Of a stretch of DNA of 64,000 nt, positions 8,815 through 40,483 are shown piece by piece (the first letter of the stretch is position 1; each line of letters starts with the position of its first letter). The notes beneath the pieces are model-generated. The model worked only from the letters and a program-made list of their open reading frames with translations, was not told the DNA's origin and did no database searches. Location of the stretch: positions 1,054,001-1,118,000 of the forward strand of contig NZ_CP080377.1 of the NCBI RefSeq assembly GCF_019443505.1, read 5' to 3'. Source of the DNA: Janthinobacterium sp. PAMC25594. GTDB lineage: Bacteria; Pseudomonadota; Gammaproteobacteria; Burkholderiales; Burkholderiaceae_D. Both the position numbers and the translations under genes were made by a program.

Positions 8815-10542
8815 TTAAAACTCTTCCCACTCTGTGGACGACGATTTGGCAACGACTTTAGCCCGCTGAGAAGAAGGGGCAACATTCTTTTCATGGCCTT
8901 TGACAGCCACTGCACGAGGATGCGCTTTTACCACTTTCGGCGTAACGTTGATTTTAGCTGCATGCCCACGTGTACTTCCGTCAAGCGTTCCCAAAACAAA
9001 CATACTGACAACTTTTTCCAGGCTTGCAGCCTGATCCTGAAGAGACTCAGCAGCAGCCGCTGATTGCTCAACCAAAGCCGCATTTTGTTGAGTAACGCTG
9101 TCCATCTGCATAATCGCTTGATTTATCTGCTCAATTCCAAGTGTTTGCTCACGACCGGCTGCTGAAATTTCACTGATTATATCTCCCACCCGGCGGACGC
9201 TTTCGACGACTTCGGTCATAGTAACGCCAGCCTCATGTACAAGCTTAGAGCCATTGCCAACTTTTTCTACAGAGTTCCCGATCAAAAGTTTAATTTCCTG
9301 AGCTGCAGTCGCACTACGATGAGCCAAGTTGCGAACCTCAGTGGCAACTACAGCGAAGCCCCTTCCCTGCTCGCCAGCACGTGCTGCCTCCACCGCGGCG
9401 TTCAAAGCTAATATGTTGGTCTGGAAGGCGATACCATCAATCACACTAATGATGTCAACTATCTTTTTCGACGACTCATTAATCTCCTCCATCGTGGTAA
9501 CTACCTGTGCAACTACAGCGCCACCCCGGCTAGCGACCTCCGAAGCAGTGACCGCAAGGCTGTTTGCCTGGCGCGCATTGTCAGAATTCTGTTTAACGGT
9601 ACTTGTTAGCTCTTCCATTGAAGATGCAGTTTCCTCTAATGAACTGGCTTGCTCCTCGGTCCTTGATGATAAATCAAGATTTCCGGCAGCGATTTCTTGA
9701 GATGCGGTTGACATGGTCTCGGTACCGCTACGAACATCACCAACAATTTTACGCAAGTTATCGTTCATTACCTTTAGGGCGCCTAGGAGCAACCCAGTTT
9801 CATCAGAGGTCTTCACCTCGATTTCACTTGTGAGATCTCCTGCTGATACGGTCTGCGCGACAACAACAGCTCGATTGATAGGTTCGACAATAGAGCGCGT
9901 GATCAACCATGCAATAATCAGACCAAAAACCACAGCTGCAGCACTTAAGGAATACATCAAAGTCCGTGCAAAAACGTACGTATTCTCAGCAAGCACTGTT
10001 GCCTCGTCGTTCTGCCTTTTTTCGCTAGCGTCCAAAGTCTCGAGGTCTGCATTCCATTTAAGCTGAACTGCCCTCAGGTCGCCCATCAAAACCTTAGTAG
10101 CATCGGCACCCTTATTTGCCAAACCAAGGGCGATTACTTTTTCAATAATTGGCTGGGCGGCGAGGTTTGCCTCGCGAATACTTGCCAGTAGCGCAGTCTC
10201 TTCGGGAAGTACCCCATATTTATCGAGCGTGACTCGGAGAGTTTTTTCTGCATCCGCATAAACCTGAGCTTGGGCTCGTAAACGGTCAACCTCCTTGCTC
10301 ATGCCGGCAATATCTTCTAACAATACGATATTTCTTAGGGCAATCATCCTATCTGCGACGCTGGCGCGCATGGTCGCTGCCATATTTGCCTCAACGTTGT
10401 TTGCTTTCGTTACAGTCTCCATGGAGTCCTGGATCGCAGACATCCGGCTTAACCCCAAAATCGCCACCGCTACGAGCATCAGCAAAACCACACCAAACGC
10501 GCAGCCGAGCCGCAGACCAATTTTCATGTTTCCGATGTTCAT
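8815..10542 (-). CDS. Methyl-accepting chemotaxis protein (prophage cargo)
   Basis: A 575-residue chemoreceptor, apparently complete. It has a transmembrane helix at about 8-30, a periplasmic four-helix-bundle sensor of about 160 residues, a second transmembrane helix near 190-212, a HAMP domain, and a long cytoplasmic signalling hairpin with the conserved tip (GIAFQTNILALNAAVEAARA). The C-terminus ends in EWEEF after a flexible linker, close to the NWETF-type tether for CheR/CheB. A GGGAG ribosome site precedes the ATG. Its DNA is AT-richer than the phage genes on both sides, as expected for acquired cargo. The ligand is unknown. Confidence 0.95.
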   Translation of the reverse strand: MNIGNMKIGLRLGCAFGVVLLMLVAVAILGLSRMSAIQDSMETVTKANNVEANMAATMRASVADRMIALRNIVLLEDIAGMSKEVDRLRAQAQVYADAEKTLRVTLDKYGVLPEETALLASIREANLAAQPIIEKVIALGLANKGADATKVLMGDLRAVQLKWNADLETLDASEKRQNDEATVLAENTYVFARTLMYSLSAAAVVFGLIIAWLITRSIVEPINRAVVVAQTVSAGDLTSEIEVKTSDETGLLLGALKVMNDNLRKIVGDVRSGTETMSTASQEIAAGNLDLSSRTEEQASSLEETASSMEELTSTVKQNSDNARQANSLAVTASEVASRGGAVVAQVVTTMEEINESSKKIVDIISVIDGIAFQTNILALNAAVEAARAGEQGRGFAVVATEVRNLAHRSATAAQEIKLLIGNSVEKVGNGSKLVHEAGVTMTEVVESVRRVGDIISEISAAGREQTLGIEQINQAIMQMDSVTQQNAALVEQSAAAAESLQDQAASLEKVVSMFVLGTLDGSTRGHAAKINVTPKVVKAHPRAVAVKGHEKNVAPSSQRAKVVAKSSSTEWEEF

Positions 10543-12808: not shown

Positions 12809-13212
12809 AGCCGGCCCTCCTGCACGCGCGCCGCGCCGAACAGCGCAGCCACCAGCGGGTCGCCCACGGCGCCCGCCTTGCGGATCCAGTACTTGCTGCG
12901 CCAGCGCGCCTTCATCGAATCCCAGCGGCCGTCCTGCTTGGCCTTGGCTTCGAAGCGCAGGCGAACCTGGCGCTTCGTCAGATGCTTCAGCTGGCACGGT
13001 GCGTCCGGCAGATCACCCACGGCATACACCGCCATGGCGGCGCCAGCACGCGGGTGCGGCTTCCAACTTGCGATGTAAATCTTGCGCGCGGAATGCAGCA
13101 GGCGCACCCACCGCAGCACGGCCGCCTGGCTGACGCCCGACTTGATGACGATCTCGGCCTTGGTACCGGGCATCGCGCCCAGCACGAATTCACTGAAATT
13201 TGCGCGCGTCAC
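12805..13212 (-). CDS. Putative winged-helix DNA-binding phage protein
   Basis: A 135-residue protein starting with GTG at 13212, overlapping the stop of the upstream gene (GTGA). The N-terminal 60 residues (TKAEIVIKSGVSQAAVLRWVRLLHSARKI) look like a helix-turn-helix or winged helix; the C-terminal part is basic with RWRSKYWIRK. It is translationally coupled at both ends within the replication operon, so a role in DNA handling is likely, but the family is not one I can name. Confidence 0.65.
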   Translation of the reverse strand: MTRANFSEFVLGAMPGTKAEIVIKSGVSQAAVLRWVRLLHSARKIYIASWKPHPRAGAAMAVYAVGDLPDAPCQLKHLTKRQVRLRFEAKAKQDGRWDSMKARWRSKYWIRKAGAVGDPLVAALFGAARVQEGRL

Positions 13213-15836
13213 TTTGCATTCTCCTCGTCCATCAGTTCCATATCGAACAGCGTAGGCATGCTAACTTCGCGCTCCATAGCTTGGCAGTAGTGCACTTGGT
13301 CAGCGAAATATGCCGGGTTCAGCTCGCTGCCGCGGCCTTGGCGGCCCAGCTTCATTGCGCGTACGGGAACAGTGCCCAGGCCACAGAATGGATCGTAGAT
13401 CACCTCCCCCGGGTTGCTGTAGCGGCCAATCAGGCGGTCAACGATATCGATCTGAAACGGGCAAACGTGCTTTTCGACAGCACGAGCCGACTGCTCGCCG
13501 TTCAGGGTGCGCATGCGCACGATGTCGTGCCACACGGCCGGATCGGCGCTGCCCGGCGCCAGGCTGAGATAATCGGCAGGCAGTGCCTTATTGGCCAGCA
13601 GCGCCTCGCCGACCTCGACGTGGTATTCATAGTTGTAGACGTTGCCCAGCGACATGCTGGTGAACAGCTTAGCCAGCTTGCCCGGGCCGAAACTGGCCAG
13701 CTCGGCCGCGCCCAGCAGGCGATCGCCACTGGAGCGCCAGAACGCATGCGCGTCGACCTGCCAGCGCGCCACGCTGTAGCCAGTACCAGGAATCGGCGCG
13801 GCCTTGCGGTCAAACGGGATCCGGTCGCCGGCATCGTCCAGGCACATTGGCTTGGCCTTGGTCACAGGCGTATCGGCATAGCCACGGCTGCGGTCCGTCT
13901 GCGGCTTGTGGAACAGCAGGATGTATTCCGGCGAGCCGACGCCCATCTTCGTGCCGTCCTTGCACACTTCGGAATAGCCCAGGCGGTAGGTCTGGTTGTT
14001 TTCGCGCACCACGTCGGTCACGACGGTGATCATGCCCATGTAATCGAAACCGTGCTTGATGCCGTGGAACAGCGCCTCGGCGTGGAACGGGCTGACGGTG
14101 GGCACGCCGGCGCCGGTAACGTTGCCAAAATTGATGCGGTCCTTGACGTGGCAGGCGTAGATGCGGCCCGGCTGCAGGATGCGCAGCAGTTCCGGCGTCA
14201 GGAAGTCCATCTGCGCCCAGAAGTGATCGTTGTCCTGGGTGTGGCCAAAGTCGTTATAGCTCGGCGTGTATTCATAATGGTTGGCGAACGGGACGCTGGT
14301 GATGATCATGCCCACCGAGTTATCCAGCTGCTGCATGGCTTCGAGCACGCAGTCGTTATTGGCCACCGAGAAGCGCTCGCCGGCCACCACGGCGCGCTCG
14401 ACGCCGATGGTGCGCGCCAGCGAATCCTGCATGGACAGCTGGTCCAGGCCATAGGCGCGGATGATCTGCCCCATCTTGGCCTGCATTTCGTCGTGGCGGC
14501 GCCATTTTTCCATCAGATCGGCCAGCACCTTGCGCTCGACCTCGGTGTGGATGATGTCGATGCGCACCGCGTGCTGCTGCTGGAAGCGCTGGACGCGGTG
14601 GATGGCCTGGATGAAATCGTTGAACTTGAAGCCGATGCCCGCGAAAATCTCACGGTGGCAATGCACCTGGAAGTTACAGCCGCTGCCGGCGATGATCGGC
14701 TTGGTCGACAGATCCTTGATCTTGCCGTCACTGAAATCGGCAATGCGCTGCTCGCGCTGGTCCAGGTCCTGCGTGCCCCAAACGCTGACCACGCCGGGCA
14801 CGGCCGCCTGGATGGCGTGGCGCTCGTCCTCCAGGTCGTGCCAGATCAGGAAGTGATCGTCAGGATCCGCCGCCATGATTTCGGCAACCTTCACCACGCG
14901 CGCGGCCATGCTGTCGCGCTTCTCGCCGGCGGCGGCCGACAGGCCCATGGCCACGTTCGGAATCAGCAGGCCCTGGCCGTTTTTCTCGGCGCCGGCCGTG
15001 CTGTAATTGCTCGGCACCTCGTGAAAGCGCACATCCAGCGCCGGCAGGTCGTAGCCCTCGTCCGAATGGCCCAGGTCGCTCGGGCGCTGGATGAAAACCG
15101 CCCAGCTGGCCACCCAAAGCCAGAATTCCTGCTCCTTGTGCGGGTACAGCGTCAGGTTGCCCGCCTTCTCGCTGTCTCGCTGGAAAAAGCGCGTCAGGGC
15201 CTGGCCAGTGTCCATCACACCCAGGAATCCGGCATAGTGGATCAATTCCTTGAAGCGGTTCGGCGACGGCGTGGCCGTGTAGACGAATTTGAACTCGACC
15301 TGCTCGAACAGTGGCAGGAACTCTTGATAGGTCTTACTGCCGTAGCTGCGCAGCACGCTGGCCTCGTCCAGACCGACGGCGCGGAACTTGCGCACGTCGA
15401 TCTTGCCCTCGCGTACCGATTCGTAGTTCGTCAGGTAGACGACGTCCTGACCATCGATCTCGGCGTCCGTGCGGATAAACCGCACTTGTACCTCGTATTC
15501 GCCAGTGAAGCGCTTCGCGGCCTCGCGGATGAATTCTTGACGTACGCCCAGCGGCAGCACGATCAGACGCAGGCCCGGCCGGTGGATGCCAATCTGGCGC
15601 ATGACTTCCAGGTTGGTGCTGGTCTTGTGCAGGCCGAACGAGGCGAAGATGGCGCGCTGGCCGCCTGCCAAGGCCCAGCGCACGATGTCACGCGTGTGCG
15701 GCTTGAGGCCGGGATGGATATCGGCCAGCGGCACGTCGAAGCCCTTGCGCTGCGCCAGCTTGATCTTGGCGCGTAGGAATTCGCTGTACGCGGCTTCTTT
15801 CAGGTATTTTTGCTCTTGCGGGCTAAATGCACTCAT
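13209..15836 (-). CDS. Fusion of SF2 helicase-like domain and N6/N4-type DNA methyltransferase
   Basis: An 875-residue protein. The N-terminal half has SNF2/DEAD-like motifs: a Walker A variant FGLHKTS near residue 70, a DEAS box (LDEASVLRS) near 155, TATPSPN, and QAIHRVQRF as motif VI. The C-terminal third is a methyltransferase with motif I DPFCGLGT near residue 815 and, before it, SVPFANHY in the place of the catalytic (D/N/S)PP(Y/F) motif. Similar fusions occur in other phages and probably protect phage DNA from restriction. The altered motif IV (Val for Pro) appears normal for this subgroup as far as I recall. The target site is unknown. Confidence 0.8.
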   Translation of the reverse strand: MSAFSPQEQKYLKEAAYSEFLRAKIKLAQRKGFDVPLADIHPGLKPHTRDIVRWALAGGQRAIFASFGLHKTSTNLEVMRQIGIHRPGLRLIVLPLGVRQEFIREAAKRFTGEYEVQVRFIRTDAEIDGQDVVYLTNYESVREGKIDVRKFRAVGLDEASVLRSYGSKTYQEFLPLFEQVEFKFVYTATPSPNRFKELIHYAGFLGVMDTGQALTRFFQRDSEKAGNLTLYPHKEQEFWLWVASWAVFIQRPSDLGHSDEGYDLPALDVRFHEVPSNYSTAGAEKNGQGLLIPNVAMGLSAAAGEKRDSMAARVVKVAEIMAADPDDHFLIWHDLEDERHAIQAAVPGVVSVWGTQDLDQREQRIADFSDGKIKDLSTKPIIAGSGCNFQVHCHREIFAGIGFKFNDFIQAIHRVQRFQQQHAVRIDIIHTEVERKVLADLMEKWRRHDEMQAKMGQIIRAYGLDQLSMQDSLARTIGVERAVVAGERFSVANNDCVLEAMQQLDNSVGMIITSVPFANHYEYTPSYNDFGHTQDNDHFWAQMDFLTPELLRILQPGRIYACHVKDRINFGNVTGAGVPTVSPFHAEALFHGIKHGFDYMGMITVVTDVVRENNQTYRLGYSEVCKDGTKMGVGSPEYILLFHKPQTDRSRGYADTPVTKAKPMCLDDAGDRIPFDRKAAPIPGTGYSVARWQVDAHAFWRSSGDRLLGAAELASFGPGKLAKLFTSMSLGNVYNYEYHVEVGEALLANKALPADYLSLAPGSADPAVWHDIVRMRTLNGEQSARAVEKHVCPFQIDIVDRLIGRYSNPGEVIYDPFCGLGTVPVRAMKLGRQGRGSELNPAYFADQVHYCQAMEREVSMPTLFDMELMDEENAK

Positions 15837-18026: not shown

Positions 18027-20372
18027 TCATGCCACCCTCGCAATCTCGCGCTCATGCGCGAAGTTGGCAAGGATCAGCGCCTTGGCCATGGGCGGGCAGA
18101 CTGAATTGCCGCACATGCGCACCTGGGCGCTCTTCGTCAGTTTCAGGCCCTGGGCCGGGTCGTCTCCGATGATGTAATCGTCGGGAAAGCCCTGGGCCCG
18201 GAACAGTTCGCGCGGCTGCAGCATGCGCAAGCCGATGTCCACGATCTGATAGTCCTGGCCGTGGATCGTCACCAGGCCGAAACGGTCGCGGCTCGTGACG
18301 GTGGCCAGCGGCCCGTCAATCTCCGGCGCCTGATCCGTGCCGTAATAGCTCAGCAGGAACGCGCGCACCTCGGCGTGGTGCTGGCCGCCAGCGCTGACCG
18401 TGCCCAGCGGCTCGTCGGTACCGGCCGCCGTGCTGGTGCCGCGCAGCTTGATCATGTTGCTGGTGATGATCGCCGACTTGCCGCCACCGCCGGCCGTGAC
18501 CGTGCCGAGCGGCGCATCGGCGGCGTGGCCGACGCTTGCACCCATGTCGCGCTGGATATGCGCCGTGACGATGCCCAGCGCATGCGGCGCACCAGCTGGA
18601 TTTTCCTTCGGCCCGGCCGTGATCGTCGGCAGCGGCATATTCATATCGCTGCCGGTGGCGCCAGTGCGGAATTTGGTGATGTGCGCCGACACCATGCTGA
18701 AATGGCCGCCCTTGACCTGGGCGCAAATGGTGCGCAGCGGCTCGTCGGCCGGCATCACGCGCTGATTGCTCGCGTTGGCATGCTCCGTCAAAAATGCCGT
18801 CACCAGGCTGTGGTGGTCGCATGCGGTGACCGTGCCAATAGGATCGGTCAGGTCCGAACCAACCACGCCCGTGTAATGCTTGGCCAGGAACGCCGTGGCC
18901 ACTGCCTTGTTGCCGCTGGCCGTAACGGTGCCCAGCGGCGCCTCGACGTCGTGCGCACCCGGTCCCCAGCGCTTAACGCCGCCTGGCGACACCTCGCCGT
19001 GCGCGGCATCGACCAGCACAGCCGTCACCAGCGCCGCGTCGGCCTTCGACGTGGCTGTTGCTGTCGGCTCGTTCAGGTCGCGCGGGCGGCTTTGGCCAGC
19101 ACGGCCGCCGACTCCGGTCAGCAGCGCCGATATCAGCGCCTGGTTGCCAGCGGCGGTGATCGTCGGTACCGGACTGCCCACGCCAGCGCCAGGGTGGCCA
19201 GTGGTGTTGGTCATGACGAATGGCGCAAGCTCGGCCTCGATCAGCGCATGCTTCGACGCCGCGCCTACCACCGTGCCGAGTGGCTTTCCGATGTCGAGCG
19301 CGCGCGGCGCCTGACCCTCACGCTCCCCGTACCCCACTTGGACCAGCGTGGCCACGCCCAGCGCCTTCTCGCCGCGGTGCGCGCCAGTGATGGTGCGGAA
19401 CGGCTCGCCGATGGATTCCGTGCGGTCGCTGCCTTGGTGTGTGACCGGGACAATTGTTGGTGCGCAGAAATAGCTGTCGTTGCGTGCCAGCAGCGTGCCG
19501 AATGGGCGCGCAGTTGGGCGCGGTTCACCTGCGCGCGCCGGTCCGCCGGCACCGACGATGAATGGCTCAGGTGCGTCAACCACGTAGCGCATAATGCCTT
19601 TGGCGATGCGACGCAACGTGGCCGGCGCCAGCGGCCGGTCGCGTTCGAAGATGCTCGGGCATGGCAGGCTGAAGTCGATGCACTCGGCCGCCGTGCGGTA
19701 CGGCAGCAGCTTGCCTGCGCGCACGCCGATGCTGTCGGGCGCGCCGTGGGTTGGCTCCGGCCACTTGATGGCGATGCCGTCGCGGCGCGCCACCAGGAAG
19801 AAACGCTTGCGGATGGTAGGCGTGTCGTGGTCGCAGCCGCGCATTTCGCGGTAGTCGACGGTGTAGCCGTGCGCGCGCAGCTGGCGGATGAAGCTGTCGA
19901 AGGTCTTGCCCTTCTTGGCCGGGTCCGGCTTGGCGCTGCCGTCCGCCTCGACCAGCAGCGGGCCCCACGTTTTGAATTCCTCGACGTTTTCAAGCATGAT
20001 GACGCGCGGCTTGCACTTGGCCGCCCAGCGCAGCGTCACCCAGGCCAGGCCACGGATGCGCTTTTCGACGGGCTTGCCGCCCTTGGCCTTGCTGAAGTGC
20101 TTGCAGTCAGGCGACAGCCAGACCAGGCCGACGGGGCGATTGCCCGTCACCTTGATCGGGTCGATGTCCCACACGCTCTCGCACAGGTGCGTGGTGTGCG
20201 GGTGGTTCGCCGCGTGCATGGCCAGCGCCTCGGGGTCGTGATTGATTGCGATGTCGACTGGGCGGCCGAATGCCTGTTCCAGGCCAGTACTGGTCCCGCC
20301 GCCTCCGGCAAAGTTATCGATGATCAGTTCGCTGCCCAAGTCGAGGGACAAGGTGAAGGCGTCGCGCTTCAT
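18027..20372 (-). CDS. C5-cytosine DNA methyltransferase with a large tandem-repeat insert
   Basis: A 781-residue protein. Motif I FAGGGGTSTG at 21-30, motif IV as SPDCKHFS at 87-94 (catalytic Cys90 in place of the usual PCQ context), ENVEEF at 128, TIRKRFFLVARRD near 186, RAQGFPDDY near 725 and GNSVCPPMAKAL at 755 show a C5 methyltransferase. Between about 290 and 705 lie eleven or twelve imperfect repeats of 25-55 residues, each with a core like APLGTVTA or EPFRTITG. This replaces a normal target-recognition domain. Phage C5 enzymes of this kind presumably shield phage DNA from host restriction. It overlaps the upstream gene by ATGA. Confidence 0.88.
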   Translation of the reverse strand: MKRDAFTLSLDLGSELIIDNFAGGGGTSTGLEQAFGRPVDIAINHDPEALAMHAANHPHTTHLCESVWDIDPIKVTGNRPVGLVWLSPDCKHFSKAKGGKPVEKRIRGLAWVTLRWAAKCKPRVIMLENVEEFKTWGPLLVEADGSAKPDPAKKGKTFDSFIRQLRAHGYTVDYREMRGCDHDTPTIRKRFFLVARRDGIAIKWPEPTHGAPDSIGVRAGKLLPYRTAAECIDFSLPCPSIFERDRPLAPATLRRIAKGIMRYVVDAPEPFIVGAGGPARAGEPRPTARPFGTLLARNDSYFCAPTIVPVTHQGSDRTESIGEPFRTITGAHRGEKALGVATLVQVGYGEREGQAPRALDIGKPLGTVVGAASKHALIEAELAPFVMTNTTGHPGAGVGSPVPTITAAGNQALISALLTGVGGRAGQSRPRDLNEPTATATSKADAALVTAVLVDAAHGEVSPGGVKRWGPGAHDVEAPLGTVTASGNKAVATAFLAKHYTGVVGSDLTDPIGTVTACDHHSLVTAFLTEHANASNQRVMPADEPLRTICAQVKGGHFSMVSAHITKFRTGATGSDMNMPLPTITAGPKENPAGAPHALGIVTAHIQRDMGASVGHAADAPLGTVTAGGGGKSAIITSNMIKLRGTSTAAGTDEPLGTVSAGGQHHAEVRAFLLSYYGTDQAPEIDGPLATVTSRDRFGLVTIHGQDYQIVDIGLRMLQPRELFRAQGFPDDYIIGDDPAQGLKLTKSAQVRMCGNSVCPPMAKALILANFAHEREIARVA

Positions 20373-22077: not shown

Positions 22078-22293
22078 TTATGGCGGCTCGCGCTGCGGCA
22101 CCTCGTATTTCTTCGCCACCCTGTCGGTGGCATCGCGCCATTTCTGGCGCGCCTCCTTGTGCGCGGCCTTTGCCGCGCTCTCACCCTCCCCGTCCTTGGC
22201 GCCCTGCAGGTCTTTCTCGGCCTGGCGGTAGATCATCGAACGCTGGAAGATCAGCTCCTTTTCCTCGGCTGTGACCTCGGCTTGTTTATTCAA
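22078..22293 (-). CDS. Small coiled-coil phage protein, function unknown
   Basis: A 71-residue protein. The TTG at 22293 is chosen because GGAGG lies eight bases upstream; the frame to 22353 overlaps the previous gene. The sequence is strongly charged and helical (EVTAEEKELIFQRSMIYRQ, then HKEARQKWRDATDRVAKKY). Nothing indicates a catalytic function. Confidence 0.5.
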   Translation of the reverse strand: MNKQAEVTAEEKELIFQRSMIYRQAEKDLQGAKDGEGESAAKAAHKEARQKWRDATDRVAKKYEVPQREPP

Positions 22294-23210: not shown

Positions 23211-23981
23211 ATGGCTACATCTAAAGAAATCCGCATCGAAAATCTCCGAACGCTCGTCAACGAATTCAGGACGGCGGACGCCGTGGCTCAACGCGCAGCC
23301 ACGGCACCCATGTATCTCAGCCAAATACTGAATAGTGCGAAGTCATCTACCGGTACCGCGCGTGGCGTGGGCGATAAGTTGGCTCGCAAGCTGGAGGCCG
23401 GTTGCGGCAAGCCGGAAGGTTGGATGGATGCCGACCACAGCGACGACCAGATTGAGGATATTCCTCAAGATCACGGCGATCCCGTGTCTACCTCCCCTGC
23501 CCACCCTCTGTTGCCCGGCGCCCGCCGCGTCACCGTAGGCGAAGCCATCCATGCAACGATTCCCATCAAATTGGTCACAATGCACTTGCAGGCCGGGATC
23601 ATGGGATTTGAAGTGGAGCAAAATTTTGAAGATGGCGGCACCTTAGATGTACCATTGCAATGGGTCGAGGAAAATGATTACGTCCCACACTGTCTTATTG
23701 CCATCAAAGTGCGAGGCGATAGCATGCAGCCCCTGCTTTACCAAGGCGATATCGCCGTGGTAAATATCGCAGATAATAAAAAGGTAAGTGGGGGCGTCTA
23801 CGCCATCAATTTCAATGGCGAGCCTGTCATTAAGCGCCTCAAATATGAGGGGCGCGAATGGTACATGACGTCCGAAAATGGCGACCCACGATACGCAAGA
23901 AGGCTTTGCCGTGGCGGTGATTGCATTATTGTTGGGCGCATAGTGCGGTTTGAGGCGCGCAATTTCAAAGACCGCCTCTAA
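23211..23981 (+). CDS. CI-type prophage repressor with S24 (LexA-like) peptidase domain
   Basis: A 256-residue repressor. ATG at 23211 is used; the upstream TTG lies in the operator. The N-terminal 80 residues hold an HTH (AVAQRAATAPMYLSQILN). The C-terminal S24 domain has catalytic Ser171 in RGDSMQP and Lys208 in PVIKRLK, and a likely Ala-Gly cleavage site at 128-129 (HLQAGIMG). This predicts RecA-stimulated self-cleavage and SOS induction. Divergent from the Cro-like gene; its operators recur upstream of the plus-strand operon at 26104. Confidence 0.93.
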   Translation: MATSKEIRIENLRTLVNEFRTADAVAQRAATAPMYLSQILNSAKSSTGTARGVGDKLARKLEAGCGKPEGWMDADHSDDQIEDIPQDHGDPVSTSPAHPLLPGARRVTVGEAIHATIPIKLVTMHLQAGIMGFEVEQNFEDGGTLDVPLQWVEENDYVPHCLIAIKVRGDSMQPLLYQGDIAVVNIADNKKVSGGVYAINFNGEPVIKRLKYEGREWYMTSENGDPRYARRLCRGGDCIIVGRIVRFEARNFKDRL

Positions 23982-28114: not shown

Positions 28115-28230
28115 TTGACGTGGCCAGCCAGGCCCTGCGCAACTGGCATGCCGGCCACGCCATCGTCTACGCCGTCCGCCTGGCGCTGTTGAAGGCAGAA
28201 ATCATAAAACTAACAAGGAAAAAGTCATGA
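28090..28230 (+). CDS. Very small early protein (46 residues)
   Basis: A GTG start at 28090 follows GGAGG; the stop overlaps the ATG of the recombination gene (ATGA). The product begins VDVGSQAVIDVASQALRNWH and has a hydrophobic middle (AIVYAVRLALLKAEI) that could be an amphipathic or membrane-binding helix. Confidence 0.5.
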   Translation: MDVGSQAVIDVASQALRNWHAGHAIVYAVRLALLKAEIIKLTRKKS

Positions 28231-29240
28231 ACGAAGTAATCGAAATGCCACGTCGCGAAAGCGCCGGCCTGGTTGCTGCCGAAGTGCACCGCTACTCGCT
28301 CGCCGAGATTCGCGAGCGCGTCAACCTGGTACAGGAGGTGATGCGCGGGATCATGAAGCTCAACACCCACTACGGGACCATCCCTGGAACGCCGAAGCCG
28401 ACGCTGTACAAGCCGGGCGCCGAAGTGCTGTGTGTGACTTTCCGCATCGCCCCGATCTATCGCATCCTCGATCTCAGCACCGATTTGGTTGCCCGCTTCC
28501 GCGTTACTTGCGTCGGCCAGCACCAGGTATCCGACATCATGTTGGGCGAAGGCGTCGGTGAATGCTCTTCCGCCGAAGAAAAATATAAGTGGCGCGCATC
28601 CGTGTGCGCCGAGGAATTCGATTTGACGCCAGAAACGATGCGCCGTCTGAAATTTGCGAAGTACAACGGCAGTGTCCAGAAGAAAGTTCAAGTACGTACC
28701 GAGGCGGCCGATCTGTCAAATACGGTCCTGAAAATGGCATGCAAGCGCGCCATGATCGCCATGACCTTAAACGTCACAGCAGCATCCGACATTTTCACGC
28801 AGGACATCGAAGACTTGCCGGAAGAATTGCGCGTCCAGGACGCCGGCGACCCAGCAATGTCACCTTTGGCGCTTGAGTGGGTGGCCAAGGCCAACGCTGC
28901 GCCAACCGCTGATGACCTGGCAGCTGTATGGAAGGCTGGCGTCAAGGCGATCAACGAGGCCAAGGATGCGGTTGCATCGAACGCCTTCAAGGCGGCTGTA
29001 ACGGAACGCGGAACGGCACTGACTGCCGCGCAGCCTGCGCCCAAAGCAGAGAAGCCAGAACCACAACCGCTGTCCACTGCTGCGGCCGAAATACTCGCCG
29101 ACATGGAAGTGCTCGCCGACGACGGTGCCGAGGTCTTCGCTGCAAGCTGGGCCAGCCTGTCGAAAACCACGCAGAACATGCTCGCCGCTCACTACGACGG
29201 CCTGATGGCGCGCGCTCAGAAAGCAGGAGGGGCAGCATGA
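28227..29240 (+). CDS. Probable phage recombination (single-strand annealing) protein
   Basis: A 337-residue protein. Residues about 25-200 form the conserved part (MKLNTHYGTIPGTPKPTLYK, then ECSSAEEKYKWR, then ADLSNTVLKMACKRAMIAMT), a pattern I know from phage proteins encoded beside YqaJ exonucleases. The C-terminal 130 residues are Ala-rich and probably a tail. By synteny it is the exonuclease partner, like lambda Bet. The annealing activity is inferred; I cannot place it in RecT, Erf or Sak with certainty. Confidence 0.6.
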   Translation: MNEVIEMPRRESAGLVAAEVHRYSLAEIRERVNLVQEVMRGIMKLNTHYGTIPGTPKPTLYKPGAEVLCVTFRIAPIYRILDLSTDLVARFRVTCVGQHQVSDIMLGEGVGECSSAEEKYKWRASVCAEEFDLTPETMRRLKFAKYNGSVQKKVQVRTEAADLSNTVLKMACKRAMIAMTLNVTAASDIFTQDIEDLPEELRVQDAGDPAMSPLALEWVAKANAAPTADDLAAVWKAGVKAINEAKDAVASNAFKAAVTERGTALTAAQPAPKAEKPEPQPLSTAAAEILADMEVLADDGAEVFAASWASLSKTTQNMLAAHYDGLMARAQKAGGAA

Positions 29241-29893
29241 GATTCATTACCTGCGCCCAAGGCACGCCGGAATGGCACCAGGCCCGCGCCGGCGTCGTAA
29301 CAGCCTCTTGCTTCGTCGATGCAGTGTCCACCCTGTCGCGCACTTCTGGCAAGCGCAAGGCCGGCGATCCTTCCATCGCCTCGGACAAATACGCCGCAGA
29401 CCTGGCCATCGAGCGCATCAGCGGCAAGCCGTACGGTGCACCAGTCAAGGCCTGGGTGCTGGACCGCGGTCACGAAATGGAGCGCCTGGCACGCATGGCG
29501 TACGAGGCGCGCACCGAATCCATGGTGACCGAGGCGGGCCTCGTGCTGACGGACGACGGCTTGTTCGGCTATTCGACGGACGGGTTTGTGGGTAATGAAG
29601 GCCTGATCGAGATCAAGGCGCCAATCGACAGCGTGAAGATCGTCGAGATCCTGGAGACAGGCGACCTGACCGAATACATGCACCAAATGCAGGGCGGCAT
29701 GTGGATCACGGCTCGCAAGTGGTGCGATTTCATCATGTACGTGCCCGACTTGGCCAACGCTGGTAGCGACCTGTACATCAAGCGCGTGATGCGCGACGAC
29801 AACTTTATTGACGCAATGGTGCTGGACCTGGCCGCTTTCGCGCGCCGCGTATCGGATCGCGAAATTCTTTTCAAACTCAAGGAGGCAGCATGA
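29237..29893 (+). CDS. YqaJ/lambda-type 5'-3' exonuclease
   Basis: A 218-residue protein with ATG at 29237 overlapping the previous stop. It shows the lambda exonuclease pattern: EWHQARAGVVTAS near residue 12, then DGFVG and LIEIKAP (Asp and Glu-x-Lys of the PD-(D/E)xK site) in the middle, and YMHQMQGGMWIT. It degrades the 5' strand of double-strand ends, leaving a 3' tail for the annealing partner. Size and motifs are complete. Confidence 0.88.
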   Translation: MRFITCAQGTPEWHQARAGVVTASCFVDAVSTLSRTSGKRKAGDPSIASDKYAADLAIERISGKPYGAPVKAWVLDRGHEMERLARMAYEARTESMVTEAGLVLTDDGLFGYSTDGFVGNEGLIEIKAPIDSVKIVEILETGDLTEYMHQMQGGMWITARKWCDFIMYVPDLANAGSDLYIKRVMRDDNFIDAMVLDLAAFARRVSDREILFKLKEAA

Positions 29894-31192: not shown

Positions 31193-31903
31193 ATGAATAC
31201 AGCAGCCGCAGCACCACAAATCACCCTGCAAGCCATCCAATCCTCGAAGATTGCCGCCATCGGCCACTGCCCCGCGACCGAAACCCTGGCCGTGCAGTTC
31301 TTCCGCAAGGGCGCGCCAGCGGACGTGTACCACTACGCCAACGTCAAGGCCACCGAATACGCGGCCTTTGCCAGCGCCGAGTCCATCGGCAAGCACTTTT
31401 ACGCGCACATCAAGCCGCATGCCGACAAGCACCCATACACGAACATGGGCACGCCGGCCGTCGAGCTGGCGCCGGTCAAGCTGAGCAAGGAACTGCTGGC
31501 CGGCCTGCTGACGGGCCGCGAATACGGTAAGGAAATGGCCAAGGAAGAAGAGCAGCAGGCCGCTGCTGCCGGCCTGATCGTGATTTTCGGCGCCAGCGAC
31601 GACCTGATCGAATTTCGTGGCTTCGTGCACGACGAGCGCGGCGCGCCGACCATCGCACTGCTCGACGCCAAGGGCTTGCTGCCATTCCGCGAGGATATCC
31701 AGCACGACGACGATGCACTCAAGGACTATTTCGCCCGGGCGCCGCAGGTGCGCGCCGTGGATGCCCTGTGGGCCAAGGAAGACGGCTACAGCTGGACCTA
31801 CCGCACTGACGTGCCGCACGCCACGTTCGAAATCGTGGAGGACGGCGAACCGTACTGCCGCGGCATCGTGATCGACGTGGCTGACTTGGGCGGTGCAGCA
31901 TGA
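31193..31903 (+). CDS. KTSC-domain phage protein
   Basis: A 236-residue protein with AGGAG before the ATG. Residues 15-80 fit a KTSC domain (IQSSKIAAIGHCPATETLAV, then YHYANV, then SIGKHFYAHIKP). KTSC domains are short DNA- or RNA-end-associated modules in many phage and nuclease proteins. The C-terminal part (LIVIFGASDDLIEFRGFVHD, then FEIVEDGEPYCRGIVI) is a widespread phage module often found alone. The two together form a fusion. Function unknown. Confidence 0.65.
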   Translation: MNTAAAAPQITLQAIQSSKIAAIGHCPATETLAVQFFRKGAPADVYHYANVKATEYAAFASAESIGKHFYAHIKPHADKHPYTNMGTPAVELAPVKLSKELLAGLLTGREYGKEMAKEEEQQAAAAGLIVIFGASDDLIEFRGFVHDERGAPTIALLDAKGLLPFREDIQHDDDALKDYFARAPQVRAVDALWAKEDGYSWTYRTDVPHATFEIVEDGEPYCRGIVIDVADLGGAA

Positions 31904-32148
31904 CCACCCGCGCCGAGCGTCAGGCACAGGCTACCGCAAAGCTCCAGGCCGCATGCGACAAGTTCAACGCTGCGCACCAGGTCGGCGCCGCCGTCAGCGT
32001 CAAGCTGGATGGTGGCGAGGTCCGCGAGACGGTCACGACCAGCGAGGCGCAGATCATGGGCGGCCACAGCGCAGTCATCTGGCTCGATGGCGTTCGCGGC
32101 TGCTATGACCTGGAACGGGTGACGGCCTTAAAGGCGGAAAAAGCATGA
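31900..32148 (+). CDS. Small conserved-looking phage protein, function unknown
   Basis: An 82-residue ORF overlapping the previous stop (ATGA). A helical N-terminus (RQAQATAKLQAACDKFNAAH) is followed by a beta-rich part (VGAAVSVKLDGGEVRETVTT, then VIWLDGVRGCYDLERV) resembling small SH3-like phage proteins. Overlaps the next gene. No known function. Confidence 0.6.
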   Translation: MTTRAERQAQATAKLQAACDKFNAAHQVGAAVSVKLDGGEVRETVTTSEAQIMGGHSAVIWLDGVRGCYDLERVTALKAEKA

Positions 32149-32783
32149 GCACCTCTTGCGCTGAGGCGCAATTCCTCCTCGACGTGGCAGAGCACAAAAT
32201 GACCGTGCTGCGTGACGATGGCGGCAACGGTCGGCATGTTCGCTTCTCGCGCCCTGGCACTGGCTGCATGCACTTCGATCTGATTACCTGGCCCGGCTAC
32301 CTCTGCTACACCGGCGACATGGGCACGTATGTCTTTCAGCGGCTGACCGACATGTTTGAGTTTTTCCGTACCGACCGGGAATACAAAAAACGCAACGGCG
32401 CTAAATTGGCGGTCAACCTCCCGTACTGGGGCGAAAAGCTCCAGGCGACAGATCGCGACGGTTATCGGAAGTATTCGTCCGAGAAATTCAAGACGAATGT
32501 CATGGACTGGGTTGAACAACGGGGGCTGACCGGAAAGCGTGGGCACGGCCTGCGCGATGAGCTTCAATCCGAAGTGCTGGACCATGCAGACGATGGAGCC
32601 GACACGGCCTACCGCGCGGCAATGGACTTTGTATGGAACGGGAAGCGCGTTTTCCACGATTTTTACGAGGTAGACAGCGAGGATTACTCGCACCGCTTCC
32701 TCTGGTGCTGCTACGCGCTGGCCTGGGGCATCGAGCAATACGACGCGGTCAAGCAGTCGGCGGCCGAGGCGGTGCCAGCATGA
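32145..32783 (+). CDS. Phage protein of unknown function, found in many prophages
   Basis: A 212-residue protein starting in overlap with the previous gene. It contains GGNGRHVRFSRPGTGCMHFD, LITWPGYLCYTGDMGTYVF and FLWCCYALAWGIEQYD, a combination I recognise from hypothetical proteins of many Gram-negative prophages. It is cytoplasmic, with no signal or membrane helix. Function is not known. Confidence 0.7.
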   Translation: MSTSCAEAQFLLDVAEHKMTVLRDDGGNGRHVRFSRPGTGCMHFDLITWPGYLCYTGDMGTYVFQRLTDMFEFFRTDREYKKRNGAKLAVNLPYWGEKLQATDRDGYRKYSSEKFKTNVMDWVEQRGLTGKRGHGLRDELQSEVLDHADDGADTAYRAAMDFVWNGKRVFHDFYEVDSEDYSHRFLWCCYALAWGIEQYDAVKQSAAEAVPA

Positions 32784-32811: not shown

Positions 32812-33225
32812 ATGACGAAACAGACCTACTTCCTCGTTCACGACGAGGCGCGACGCCGGGCGGCCGAATTCGCAAAAAACGCGCCGCCCGGCTGGATGGT
32901 CGTGTTTTCCGAGCCGAAGAAAAAGCGGGCCCAGGAAGAAAAATATCACGCAATGATCGGCGAGATCGCCAAGCAGGTGGAACACATCGGGCGCAAGTGG
33001 GATGCGGACGACATGAAGCGGCTGCTGGTGGACGAGTTTGCCGACGAAATGCGCCTGGCCGGCACCCCGCTGCACCACGACGGGCGCGTGACGCCCAGCT
33101 TCGACGGGCGTCGCATCGTGCAGCTGGGCGTCCAGACCAGCGACTTCTACGTGAAGGAAGCCGCTCAGTTCATTGAATTTTTGTATGCCTTCGGTGCCGC
33201 GCGCGGCGTCGTGTTCTCAGAATAA
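32812..33225 (+). CDS. ninB: NinB-like recombination mediator
   Basis: A 137-residue protein of the right size for NinB (lambda Orf). Recognisable segments are GWMVVFSEPKKKRAQEEKYH near residue 27, WDADDMKRLLVDEFADEM and FYVKEAAQFIEFLYAFGAAR. Lambda Orf binds single-strand DNA and replaces RecFOR in recombination. It lies in the recombination module between exonuclease and RdgC-type genes. The ATG is within a short leader ORF (32780-32815) that I regard as incidental. Confidence 0.85.
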   Translation: MTKQTYFLVHDEARRRAAEFAKNAPPGWMVVFSEPKKKRAQEEKYHAMIGEIAKQVEHIGRKWDADDMKRLLVDEFADEMRLAGTPLHHDGRVTPSFDGRRIVQLGVQTSDFYVKEAAQFIEFLYAFGAARGVVFSE

Positions 33226-33234
33226 GGAAGCGCC

Positions 33235-34701
33235 ATGTTTTTCAAGAATTTGCAGATTTACCGCTTACCCATCCCTTGGGCCATGACGGCCGCCCTGCTC
33301 GAGCAGGCACTGGCGCCGCAGCAGTTCACACCCGCCACTAGCATGGACCTGGTACGCCAGGGCTGGGCCGCACCTCGCGGTGCCGGCGCGCCGTTGGTGC
33401 ATGCCGTCGGCGGCCAGTTCCTGCTGCAGCTGAAAACCGAGAAGAAGCTGCTGCCGTCGACCGTGGTCAACCAGGTGGCCGCCGCCCGCGCGCTGGAAAT
33501 GGAAGAAGCCCAGGGCTTCGCGCCCGGCAAGAAGGCCATGAAGGAACTGAAGGAGCGCGTCACCGACGAGCTGCTGCCGCGCGCGTTCGCCATTCTCAGC
33601 ACCACGGCCGTGTGGATTGACCCGGTGAACGGCTGGCTGGTGGTGGACGCGGCCAGCCCGGCCAAGGCCGATGAAGTGATCAAGCTGCTGCTCAAGTCCG
33701 TCGACAAGCTGCCGCTGGAAAGCCTGCGCGTAATGCGCTCGCCGGTCGGCGCGATGACGGAATGGCTGCAGGCGGACGAATCCCCGGCCGGCTTCACGGT
33801 CGACCAAGACGCGATCATGCGCGCCACCGGCGAGAGCAAGGCCCAGGTGGCGTACAAGCGCCACACCCTGGAAGCGGACGATATCCGCCGCCACATTGCC
33901 GCCGGCAAGCAGTGCACGCGCCTGGCCATGACCTGGAGCGACAAGATCAGCTTCGTGCTGGACGAGAGCCTGGCCGTCAAATCGGTGAAGCCGTTGGAGA
34001 TCATCAAGGAGAGCGCCACGCGCAACGACGACGAGCGCTTCGACAGCGATTTCGCGCTGATGTCGGGCGAACTGGCCAAGATGCTGGCCGACCTGGTCGA
34101 GGCTCTGGGCGGCGAGGCCGACGCGGATGCGCCGGCGCCGCGCCAAGCTGCTGCCGGCCAGCAGAAGATCGAGCGCGCCGTGAACTTGACTGCCGATCTG
34201 TACAAGTTGCGCGCACGTTATCGCGATGTGCTCAACGAGCTGTATGAAAGCACCGTGCAGCCGGCCGTTGCCCGCGTGCGCGAGCACATGGCAGAAACTG
34301 CCGAGGGCGCGATTAAATCGGCGCTGACGCTGGCCAAGGAGCTGCCTGGCGGCTCGCAATCCGCCGACCTGCTGCTGGTAGCCGCCGTTGAGATCATGGA
34401 ACCGAGCCCACGACCGGCAGCGGGCGATGCCCCTGTCCGCCAACAGCGCCCGGCGCTGCAGCTGAATGGCGAAGCGGTAGGCGCCGTGCTGCCCGGCGAC
34501 GGCAGCGCGAGCGATCCGTTGTACGAGCAGTCCGTCGAGCTGGTGCGCAGCCGGCAGCGCGCATCGATATCCCTGGTACAGCGGTATTTGGGCATTGGCT
34601 ACAACCGGGCGGCGCGGCTTCTCGAAGCAATGGAGTTGGTCGGCCTCACTGGACCTGTGCAATCTAACGGAAACCGAAATCTCCTGAATGTCATGACTTG
34701 A
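33235..34701 (+). CDS. RdgC-FtsK-gamma fusion protein
   Basis: A 488-residue protein. Residues 1-295 form a complete Rdg[11 protein letters not shown] at the start, LLPRAFAIL near 113, [20 protein letters not shown] near 125 and [20 protein letters not shown] at 268. RdgC is a ring-forming DNA-binding protein that restrains RecA. A helical and Pro/Ala-rich linker (296-425) leads to a C-terminal FtsK gamma winged helix at about 427-486: [20 protein letters not shown] then RLLEAME. Asn457, Arg461 and Glu464 match the residues reported to contact KOPS DNA in FtsK gamma. No FtsK motor domain is present. The fusion predicts sequence-directed RdgC binding. Confidence 0.88.
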
Positions 34702-37082: not shown

Positions 37083-37618
37083 TCGATCTCTTGGACCTGG
37101 TACGCAGCATTGCCGCCGCCGCGGCGCGCGCTGCCGAAAACAAGCACTCCCCGTCCCCCTGCAGCCAAGGCTCGCCACTGCTGGCCATCGTGCGTCAGGC
37201 CTGCGTAGAGCGCGGCTATACCGGCGATGGCCTGGCCGTTCTGGGCATGGCTGCCCCGACGGCGCAGCCCGCCGCCGTACCGGATGGTTGGAAGCTGGTG
37301 CCGGCCGAGCCAAATGACGCAATGCAAACCGCTGGCGCACAGGCCGTACGCATCGACACCACGGCCATCAATAAAATCTGGACTGGCAATGCAGTATTTC
37401 GGGCCATGATTGCCGCAGCGCCGGCCGCCCCAGCGATTCAGGGCGAAGCAAACGCGCATGCCGTCCTTTACGCCGCGTTAGATCTGAATGCCCGCGTCGT
37501 CTACAGCCACGAGAGCCTGGAAAACGTGGAAATGAACAGCGGGTACATCAAGACGCCAACGCGAGTTGTTGGCTTAGCCGCTATCGCTGTCAGTAAGGCG
37601 GATGGGAGCGCGCTATGA
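37079..37618 (+). CDS. Phage protein with repeated PDGWKLVP-type module, function unknown
   Basis: A 179-residue protein starting in overlap with the previous gene. Residues about 65-115 (VPDGWKLVPAEPNDAMQTAG, then AMIAAAPAAP) match a short module common in hypothetical phage proteins. The C-terminal part (VVYSHESLENVEMNSGYIKT) is separate. Overlaps the excisionase start by ATGA. Confidence 0.6.
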   Translation: MIDLLDLVRSIAAAAARAAENKHSPSPCSQGSPLLAIVRQACVERGYTGDGLAVLGMAAPTAQPAAVPDGWKLVPAEPNDAMQTAGAQAVRIDTTAINKIWTGNAVFRAMIAAAPAAPAIQGEANAHAVLYAALDLNARVVYSHESLENVEMNSGYIKTPTRVVGLAAIAVSKADGSAL

Positions 37619-37917
37619 ACATGAGCGAGCACGACGTGGTGGCCAGGATGGTTGCCGCAATCGAGCGTGCGCACCAGCCCCTTACTTGGGTAAAGCTCGA
37701 GCGCTACGTCGAAATATCAGGCGATTCCGTCGATTCCGTGCAGGCCCGCCGCAAGGCTGGCAAGTGGCTCGATGGCAATCAATGCAAAATTGTAGATGGC
37801 CGGCTGTGGATCAACCTGCCGGCGGTAGAAGAATGGGTAGCAAAATGGGAACAAACAAGTCCAGCCCGCCAGGCGTCGAACTCCGGTCGGGCGTCCAAAG
37901 CGAATCGATCCGCATAA
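37615..37917 (+). CDS. xis: Excisionase-like protein
   Basis: A 100-residue protein just upstream of, and overlapping, the integrase gene. The centre (WVKLERYVEISGDSVDSVQA, then RRKAGKWLDGNQCKIVDGRL) has the Xis winged-helix pattern, in which a short basic helix selects DNA and a wing follows. Excisionases bend attachment-site DNA and turn integrase toward excision. Gene symbol by position and fold only. Confidence 0.72.
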   Translation: MNMSEHDVVARMVAAIERAHQPLTWVKLERYVEISGDSVDSVQARRKAGKWLDGNQCKIVDGRLWINLPAVEEWVAKWEQTSPARQASNSGRASKANRSA

Positions 37918-39032
37918 AATTTATGTACCGTGGCACCGAGTGCAGGGAAACGCTGAAGCTCGCGCACAGCAAGGCAAACATAAAATACGCCGAGCGGCTT
38001 CGCGGCGAGATCCTGAACGCCATTGCGCTGGGTAATTTCAGCTATGCCAAGTACTTCCCCGAATCGACGCAGCTGAAGAAGTTCGGTTTGCAACCTCGGG
38101 GCAAGGATGTAACCGTTGGCGACCTGCTTAAACAGCAATTCGAGATCTACGAGCGTATCCTCGCGCCCAGCACGTTGAAAAGCTACAAGCGCGTGCTCAA
38201 CAAAATACTGATGGGGCAATGGGGCGACACGCTGCTCACCGAGCTTACGCCGGCGGCGCTGCGCACGTGGATTGTCGATCTGTCGTTGAAGGCCACCTCC
38301 GTCAGACAAATTCTCATCCCGCTGCGCGGCGCGCTGGAGCTTGCGATAAACGACGACCTGATTGATAGTAACCCGCTCGACCGGGTGAAATTGCAAAAAA
38401 CGTTGGACCGCGACGCCTACAAGGCTGAATACGAAGTGGATCCTTTTTCCGCGCAGGAGATTGCGGCCATCCTCGATGCTGCCCAGGGCCAGGCCCGCAA
38501 TGTCTTTCAGTTTGCCTTCTACACGGGCATGCGCCCGAGTGAATACATCGCGTTACGCTGGGAATCGATCGACTGGGCCGGATTCAAGGCGAAGGTGGAG
38601 CGTTCGCGTGTGATGGGTGAATCGCGCGAGGAACTAAAGACGCGCGCCGGCCGCCGCTTGGTCGACCTGCGGCGCGGCGCTGTCGCGGCGCTGGTTGCAC
38701 AGAAGCAACATAGCTGCCTTGCTGGTGGCCTGGTGTTCCTTGATCCGGCTACCGGCCAGGGCTGGGACAACACGCAGCGCTTGAGCCTCTTCTGGGCGGC
38801 AATGATCAAGAAGGCCCAGGTCCGCTACCGAAATCCGTATCAAACGAGGCACACATTCGCGTCGACGCTGCTATCGACGGGCGCCAACTCGATGTACGTG
38901 GCAAAGCAAATGGGGCATACCGATACGACCATGATCACCCGAACGTATGGCCGCTGGGTTGAGCAGGAAGGTGGCGTGTTGCCTGATCAGTATTGCAAAA
39001 TGACTGATGGGCTAAAGGCAGGGGCAGCCTAG
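37833..39032 (+). CDS. int: Tyrosine-recombinase phage integrase
   Basis: A 399-residue integrase; starts at 37833 or 37845 are both possible. An N-terminal arm-binding domain (FMYRGTECRETLKLAHSKAN) leads to a core-binding domain and the catalytic domain. Catalytic residues: Arg in GMRPSEY, the box PYQTRHTFAS (Tyr in the first His place, with the Arg), His in QMGHTD, and the nucleophile Tyr in TRTYGRW. It overlaps the excisionase by 85 bases. It is the last prophage gene, next to host rnfH-ratA, so the attachment site should be in the following 190 bases. Confidence 0.93.
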   Translation: MGSKMGTNKSSPPGVELRSGVQSESIRIKFMYRGTECRETLKLAHSKANIKYAERLRGEILNAIALGNFSYAKYFPESTQLKKFGLQPRGKDVTVGDLLKQQFEIYERILAPSTLKSYKRVLNKILMGQWGDTLLTELTPAALRTWIVDLSLKATSVRQILIPLRGALELAINDDLIDSNPLDRVKLQKTLDRDAYKAEYEVDPFSAQEIAAILDAAQGQARNVFQFAFYTGMRPSEYIALRWESIDWAGFKAKVERSRVMGESREELKTRAGRRLVDLRRGAVAALVAQKQHSCLAGGLVFLDPATGQGWDNTQRLSLFWAAMIKKAQVRYRNPYQTRHTFASTLLSTGANSMYVAKQMGHTDTTMITRTYGRWVEQEGGVLPDQYCKMTDGLKAGAA

Positions 39033-40033: not shown

Positions 40034-40483
40034 ATGACCATAGCAGACAACAGAAAAGCCTTCCACGACTACTTTATCGAGGATCGCTACGAAGCGGGCA
40101 TCGTGCTGGAAGGCTGGGAAGTCAAAGCCATCCGCGACGCTCGCGTACAAATCAAGGAAGCCTACGTCGTCGTCCGCGGCGATGAACTCTTCCTGTTCGG
40201 CGCGCATATCAGCGCCCTGCCGACCGCCTCCACCCATATCCATCCGGAAGCCGTACGCACACGCAAGCTGCTGCTGCACCGCACGGAAATGGATAAACTG
40301 ATCGGCAAGGTGGAACGCTCCGGCTACACGCTGGTGCCGCTCAACCTGCACTACAAGGGCGGCCGCGTGAAATGCGAAATCGGCCTGGCCAAGGGCAAGA
40401 AACAGCACGACAAGCGGGCAGCCGAGCGCGACCGCGATGGCGCGCGCGAAGTGCAGGCGGCAATGAAGTCACACCGCCGTTGA
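40034..40483 (+). CDS. smpB: SsrA-binding protein SmpB
   Basis: A 149-residue protein of normal length. The start [28 protein letters not shown], the central [12 protein letters not shown] and the basic C-terminal tail ([15 protein letters not shown]) are diagnostic. SmpB delivers tmRNA to stalled ribosomes for trans-translation. Divergent from ratA. No tmRNA gene was seen in the window. Confidence 0.97.

Follow-up and report, generated by a model that had tools for sequence, protein, structure and literature searches.

The 64,000-nucleotide window analyzed here (Janthinobacterium sp. PAMC25594, contig NZ_CP080377.1, positions 1,054,001 to 1,118,000) contains part of a prophage in which a single open frame on the plus strand (33235–34701) encodes a 488-residue protein joining RdgC to a C-terminal FtsK gamma domain. 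We confirm that this protein, RdgC-gamma, is a genuine and recurrent fusion, under purifying selection, encoded in a phage recombination operon. Pfam places RdgC (PF04381) at residues 1–294 (33235–34116) with E = 3.6e-109 (365 bits, cut-off 25) and the FtsK_gamma winged helix (PF09397) at residues 425–484 (34507–34686) with E = 1.9e-19 (69.5 bits, cut-off 30.6). NCBIfam returns an RdgC subfamily at 440 bits and full-length RdgC above its cut-off, and a sequence search of the PDB pairs the protein with RdgC 2owl (E = 1.1e-57) and its residues 421–484 with the gamma of Pseudomonas aeruginosa FtsK (2ve8/2ve9, E = 6.5e-17). A monomer structure model with a mean predicted local distance difference test score (pLDDT) of 83 contains the RdgC fold, with base, centre and tip, as well as the winged-helix fold of gamma, the score falling below 50 only at residues 298–316 and 395–417. 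The first-pass annotation, made from the sequence alone, had proposed just this fusion, together with the profile search and structure prediction by which it might be checked, and both agree with it. What it called a linker, on the other hand, contains predicted helices at residues 309–355, 359–368 and 375–388 in this long form of the protein; the ~405-residue form has an alignment gap there. No family was assigned to this middle segment (residues 309–388, 34159–34398) in whole-protein scans of Pfam, PHROGs and NCBIfam, which gave only a weak FAM25 match below cut-off, and no FtsK_SpoIIIE motor (ATPase) family appears among the Pfam matches up to E = 0.1.

The recognition-helix residues on which the annotation relied, Asn457, Arg461 and Glu464, are all present; they align with residues 1296, 1300 and 1303 of Escherichia coli FtsK, which we take to be readers of KOPS (FtsK-orienting polar sequences), with 1300 presumably reading KOPS only. 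The helix itself, YNRAARLLE, is identical in RdgC-gamma and in the host's own FtsK. Gamma positions are numbered here on the E. coli scale, from an alignment read through the XerD-contact table of PMC5052618. Three of the four XerD-contact positions (Gln1288, Arg1289, Arg1292 and Asn1296) are retained; the fourth, 1292, is Gly in this protein (residue 453) and Arg or Lys in all 61 FtsK gammas with which we compared it.

Both Pfam domains occur together in 113 of the 120 homologues listed out of 4732 found at E = 0.001 or better. The fusion comes in two sizes, ~405 and ~488 residues, the middle helices making the difference. The annotation had called for a search for this architecture across phages, and a family-alignment search of which we took the best 80 loci of each kind, so that totals are lower bounds, found it in 33 viral loci and two genome loci; the remaining genome loci hold either RdgC by itself or frames with gamma alone, most of these about as long as FtsK. 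Fusions are carried by phages of Achromobacter, Pseudomonas and Vibrio and by plasmids of Burkholderia, Pseudomonas, Chromobacterium and Variovorax, and seven of 13 Janthinobacterium genomes hold a full-length match beside a plain RdgC. One related contig (L143:6001–7236) has an RdgC with middle helices and its gamma in a separate frame from 7309, either a split fusion or a sequencing error; another phage RdgC (L169:6001–7248) bears a different C-terminal extension of ~120 residues in gamma's place. A tree of 131 RdgC domains, built by a quick method and containing some long branches, shows a minimum of 15 switches between RdgC with and without gamma, of which 9 or more cross well-supported branches: gamma has been gained or lost repeatedly. 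At several points of the tree fused RdgCs adjoin chromosomal ones from the same bacterial families. We found no paper describing the fusion among the open-licence papers searched, and it is already visible as a Pfam architecture in the domain databases. The annotation would have given up the fusion if the profile match had failed, or if the contact residues had been lost and relatives lacked it; the match is strong, the residues are kept and the fusion is conserved, and the proposal therefore holds.

The operon setting beside an exonuclease and NinB was also correctly recognized in the annotation. Nine bases upstream of the fusion gene lies a NinB/Orf-like recombination mediator (32812–33225, plus strand; PF05772, E = 4.5e-19; phrog_72), and further upstream on the same strand are genes for proteins of phrog_4657 (32145–32783), a KTSC-domain protein (31193–31903; PF13619, E = 1.1e-14), a YqaJ-like exonuclease whose start was chosen by hand (29228–29893; PF09588, E = 2.7e-14; phrog_149) and a protein of phrog_10048 (28227–29240). 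Pfam matches among the 139 proteins that flank 37 fused loci include YqaJ (9), RecT (8), KTSC (6), NinB (4), ERF (3) and SSB (1), as against YqaJ 3, NinB 1, SSB 5 and ParB-HTH 5 among 142 proteins flanking 37 gamma-less viral RdgC loci, where RecT and ERF occur at most once each (outside the best 25 of 38 families); these counts are rough because the flanking open reading frames were chosen mechanically, and the PHROGs counts agree with them. The clearest operons read ERF-exonuclease-RdgC-gamma (pBVIE05) and exonuclease-SSB-RdgC-gamma (phage D14I).

A tyrosine integrase (37602–39032, plus strand; PF00589, phrog_1) lies to the right of the fusion gene. No attachment (att) repeat of at least 15 bases was found between the integrase end and 48 kb searched leftwards; judging from related records of 60–69 kb, the prophage probably runs ~26 kb past the window. 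Left of the recombination operon are genes for a phage helicase and a large DNA methyltransferase (13209–15836 and 18027–20372, minus strand). Near the right end of the prophage is an smpB-like gene (40034–40483, judged from its translation), and neither a transfer-messenger RNA nor a tRNA was detected in the window.

How the fused gamma has been conserved was judged from 128 unique fused gammas and 61 unique gammas taken as FtsK's. Positions 1288, 1289, 1294, 1296 and 1297 are kept in 128, 125, 126, 125 and 127 of the fused set, respectively, and each in 61/61 of the FtsK set. Glu stands at 1303 in 118 of the 128; position 1292 is Arg or Lys in 102 and another residue in 26, Gly in 10 of them including the window protein. 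The full Asn-Arg-Glu combination at 1296, 1300 and 1303 is found in 88/128 fused and 57/61 FtsK gammas. Purifying selection acts on gamma as it does on RdgC when all fused loci are taken together (0.45 versus 0.51; 458/903 pairs), and within the Janthinobacterium phage group (nine fused loci) the proportions of synonymous (pS) and nonsynonymous (pN) differences are 0.28 and 0.05 for RdgC and 0.47 and 0.16 for gamma. We also considered whether gamma matches its host. The gammas of Pseudomonas phage loci L046 and L300 are nearest to P. aeruginosa FtsK, and those of Vibrio loci L047 and L048 lean to E. coli FtsK by 1–3 points; L298 does not, L050 (a Pseudomonas plasmid) is nearest to a betaproteobacterial FtsK, and L296 ties. 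With L050, L296 and L298 failing to fit, host-matching is a trend only.

The annotation suggested that the phage places its RdgC on polarised host or phage motifs for purposes of its own, and proposed counting KOPS and their strand bias. Such a bias is present. On the host chromosome KOPS are polarised, the favored side switching near a dif-like site at 649071, and the part of the prophage in the window has four GGGNAGGG octamers (2122–2129, 9360–9367, 22184–22191 and, as GGGCAGGG, 23495–23502), all on the minus strand, matching the polarity of the chromosome arm in which it lies. Among 25 tailed-phage records (two named phages and 23 virus contigs, of which one has its gamma split), 24 hold the majority of their KOPS on the strand opposite rdgC and one is tied; a further four records have none, one on the opposite strand, 7:6 and 5:2. 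Over 39 RdgC-gamma records, which include four named phages or plasmids outside the tailed-phage set and one split gamma, the majority and minority strands hold 279 and 27 KOPS, against 150:60 for a reversed-motif control (p = 8e-9). In six phage sequences the majority-strand KOPS also exceed the mean third-order Markov expectation, which shows that the phages are polarised and not why.

This bias was at first striking as a mark of RdgC-gamma elements, and is ruled out as such by the equal bias of viral contigs with a gamma-less RdgC: 32 of these hold KOPS at 221:22 (control 180:39, p = 0.006). Six relatives by portal gene without RdgC-gamma, one of which (G308) has gamma on another protein, hold 43:10 (control 27:12), a difference from the fused records at p = 0.046, in a small sample and with records that are related rather than independent. 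Measured against the control, KOPS are slightly more numerous in fused records than in those with plain RdgC (p = 0.015 to 0.039), and no more numerous than in the portal relatives (p = 0.58 to 0.82). Prophages adapt generally to host polarity; because plain-RdgC phages are equally polarised, such adaptation together with coding-strand bias may explain the pattern. No evidence links KOPS to the fusion.

Both folds, the flexible joint between them, purifying selection on gamma, the recurrence of the fusion and its recombination-operon setting are the observed basis for the mechanism that we favor, to which we give an even chance: gamma tethers the phage RdgC ring to double-stranded DNA, and probably helps to load it there, in the course of homologous recombination by the phage. 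The RdgC part would form the known dimeric ring, which binds DNA and limits RecA. Gamma would bind GC-rich KOPS-like octamers, of the host type here and perhaps of other sequences in relatives whose reading residues have changed, and the two gammas of a dimer could assist closure of the ring around DNA, the part that gamma plays for the FtsK hexamer. Once loaded, the ring might restrain RecA or set the working place of the phage annealase/exonuclease pair.

Several observations weigh against this proposal. RdgC has been reported to be a ring that binds DNA with neither gamma nor sequence preference, so a loader is not needed. Position 1300 (Arg461) is Arg in only 98 of the 128 fused gammas and is replaced in 30, by Asn in 20 of them, and the wing is missing in 39. 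Compared with the window protein, close relatives share 90–96% DNA identity over most of the RdgC core and 29–48% over the last 18 residues of gamma, with 67–97% over the first parts of gamma; gamma segments thus look swapped between phages, and the diverged ends are hard to square with a single fixed target. The first 60 residues of RdgC vary too (61–93%), and gamma is not the sole variable part of the protein. KOPS strand ratios do not differ between the 39 fused and 32 plain-RdgC records (p = 1.0), and iteron-like repeats near the gene amount to short GC-rich matches in two to four copies, none striking. The sequence specificity of gamma is a prediction, and it seems to be diversified among relatives. 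The annotation is right as a molecular description and partly supported overall; its functional sketch exceeds the evidence, placement on polarised motifs being undercut by a bias no stronger than with plain RdgC and by the loss of Arg461 or the wing in relatives. Its further idea, that the protein guards phage ends, draws no support from these results.

The same losses, the apparent swapping of alleles and a KOPS bias not particular to fusion records would suit a gamma that is a plain DNA-binding add-on, raising the affinity of RdgC with little or no sequence choice; near-invariant core contact residues and purifying selection on gamma speak against this account, which we think unlikely. Equally unlikely, and weakened by the results below, is a role on host XerD, in which RdgC-gamma would activate or block XerCD, either resolving multimers of phage or plasmid DNA or upsetting the resolution of chromosome dimers. 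The annotation's suggestion of interference with dif/XerCD finds some backing in the equivalents of Gln1288, Arg1289 and Asn1296 (Gln449, Arg450 and Asn457 here), which are among the best-kept positions, and fusions are found on plasmids too. In the data reported in PMC5052618, joining nine residues (1289–1297) to XerC is enough for dif recombination to be stimulated; positions 1288, 1289, 1294 and 1296 touch XerD, and Arg1297 serves as a no-effect control. Because the XerD contacts listed there are a subset of the KOPS contacts, however, their conservation cannot separate the two roles. Position 1292 is not Arg or Lys in the 26 gammas counted above, the window protein among them, and the prophage has its own integrase, unlike integrative mobile elements exploiting Xer (IMEX). 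Host XerD (C1:4979607–4980473) reads, in an alignment made by eye, GEQARLW where E. coli has Glu183-Glu184 to Trp188, so that two partners of FtsK gamma, Glu184 and Tyr187, appear changed. Nor did a dif-like site stand out in six phage sequences (five, and the part of our own prophage short of its far left), the best arms matching 14–17 of 22 bases against 14–16 in shuffled sequence, a gain of at most one base.

Identity of the recognition helix with that of host FtsK would also allow a decoy that sits on the KOPS of the host or intermixes with its FtsK, disturbing chromosome segregation or division; the gene belongs to a recombination operon, the gammas of relatives diverge from the host reader, and we consider this very improbable. 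Chance similarity, misassembly or two-gene read-through, for which only the separate gamma frame of L143 might speak, is refuted by conservation of the fused frame among the listed homologues, viral loci and same-genus genomes counted above.

If RdgC-gamma is indeed a ring tethered by gamma, a natural RdgC with a built-in predicted reader offers a way to study how the ring is put on DNA, and where. The manner in which gamma nucleates a ring at KOPS is called arguable in PMC5357621 and could, should gamma load rings in general, be studied on motor-less partners. The presence of gamma on a clamp-like phage protein as well hints that phages may reuse the reader to place such proteins on DNA. More broadly, and tentatively, it is possible that FtsK gamma is a mobile adaptor on unrelated phage proteins that encircle DNA or form rings (RdgC, a two-domain sliding clamp, a small terminase), letting them load at particular oriented octamers with no need of an ATP-driven loader; exchange of the RdgC reader among alleles would then direct related phages to different sites. 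Were gamma to load rings generally, Gordonia phages might have, in their clamp-gamma proteins, clamps needing no clamp loader.

Set beside known systems, the phage protein extends RdgC (PF04381; E. coli and P. aeruginosa structures 2owl and 2owy) by ~190 residues ending in FtsK gamma, whereas the host's chromosomal RdgC (a 305-residue frame) has no gamma. It resembles the FtsK/SpoIIIE gamma (PF09397; KOPS complex 2ve9, XerD complex 5dcf) in fold, recognition helix and most KOPS and XerD contacts, and differs in having no motor family found, in carrying gamma on RdgC and in the Gly at position 1292. The small terminase of Bacillus phages Sam46 and Sam112, as described in PMC8190038, is likewise a non-translocase phage protein with an FtsK gamma, but is a packaging protein with gamma at its N end. 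A phage protein of phrog_6576 (phi297_00012) carries a gamma too and lies in a RecT-exonuclease operon; its N-terminal part is unrelated and its gamma lies at residues 163–223 of 323. Two proteins of this family (L296:4509–5477, from phi297, and L295:1480–2337, minus strand) have gamma without a motor and lie beside RecT; the phi297 protein also adjoins a PD-(D/E)XK nuclease, and the L295 version has an additional weak match resembling ribosome modulation factor. Gp52 of Gordonia phage Kiko (L302:2197–3231) is a two-domain beta-sliding-clamp-like protein with kin in 39 other actinophage records; its annotation varies between FtsK-like translocase, RusA-like resolvase and sliding clamp. The versions from Kiko and other Gordonia phages have at their C-terminal end an FtsK gamma that shares, by eye, the actinobacterial FtsK signature (56–69% identity to FtsK matches over gamma). 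Like RdgC-gamma, then, Kiko gp52 and its kin combine a DNA-ring fold with a C-terminal gamma, the differences being a sliding-clamp fold and a gamma of the actinobacterial type.
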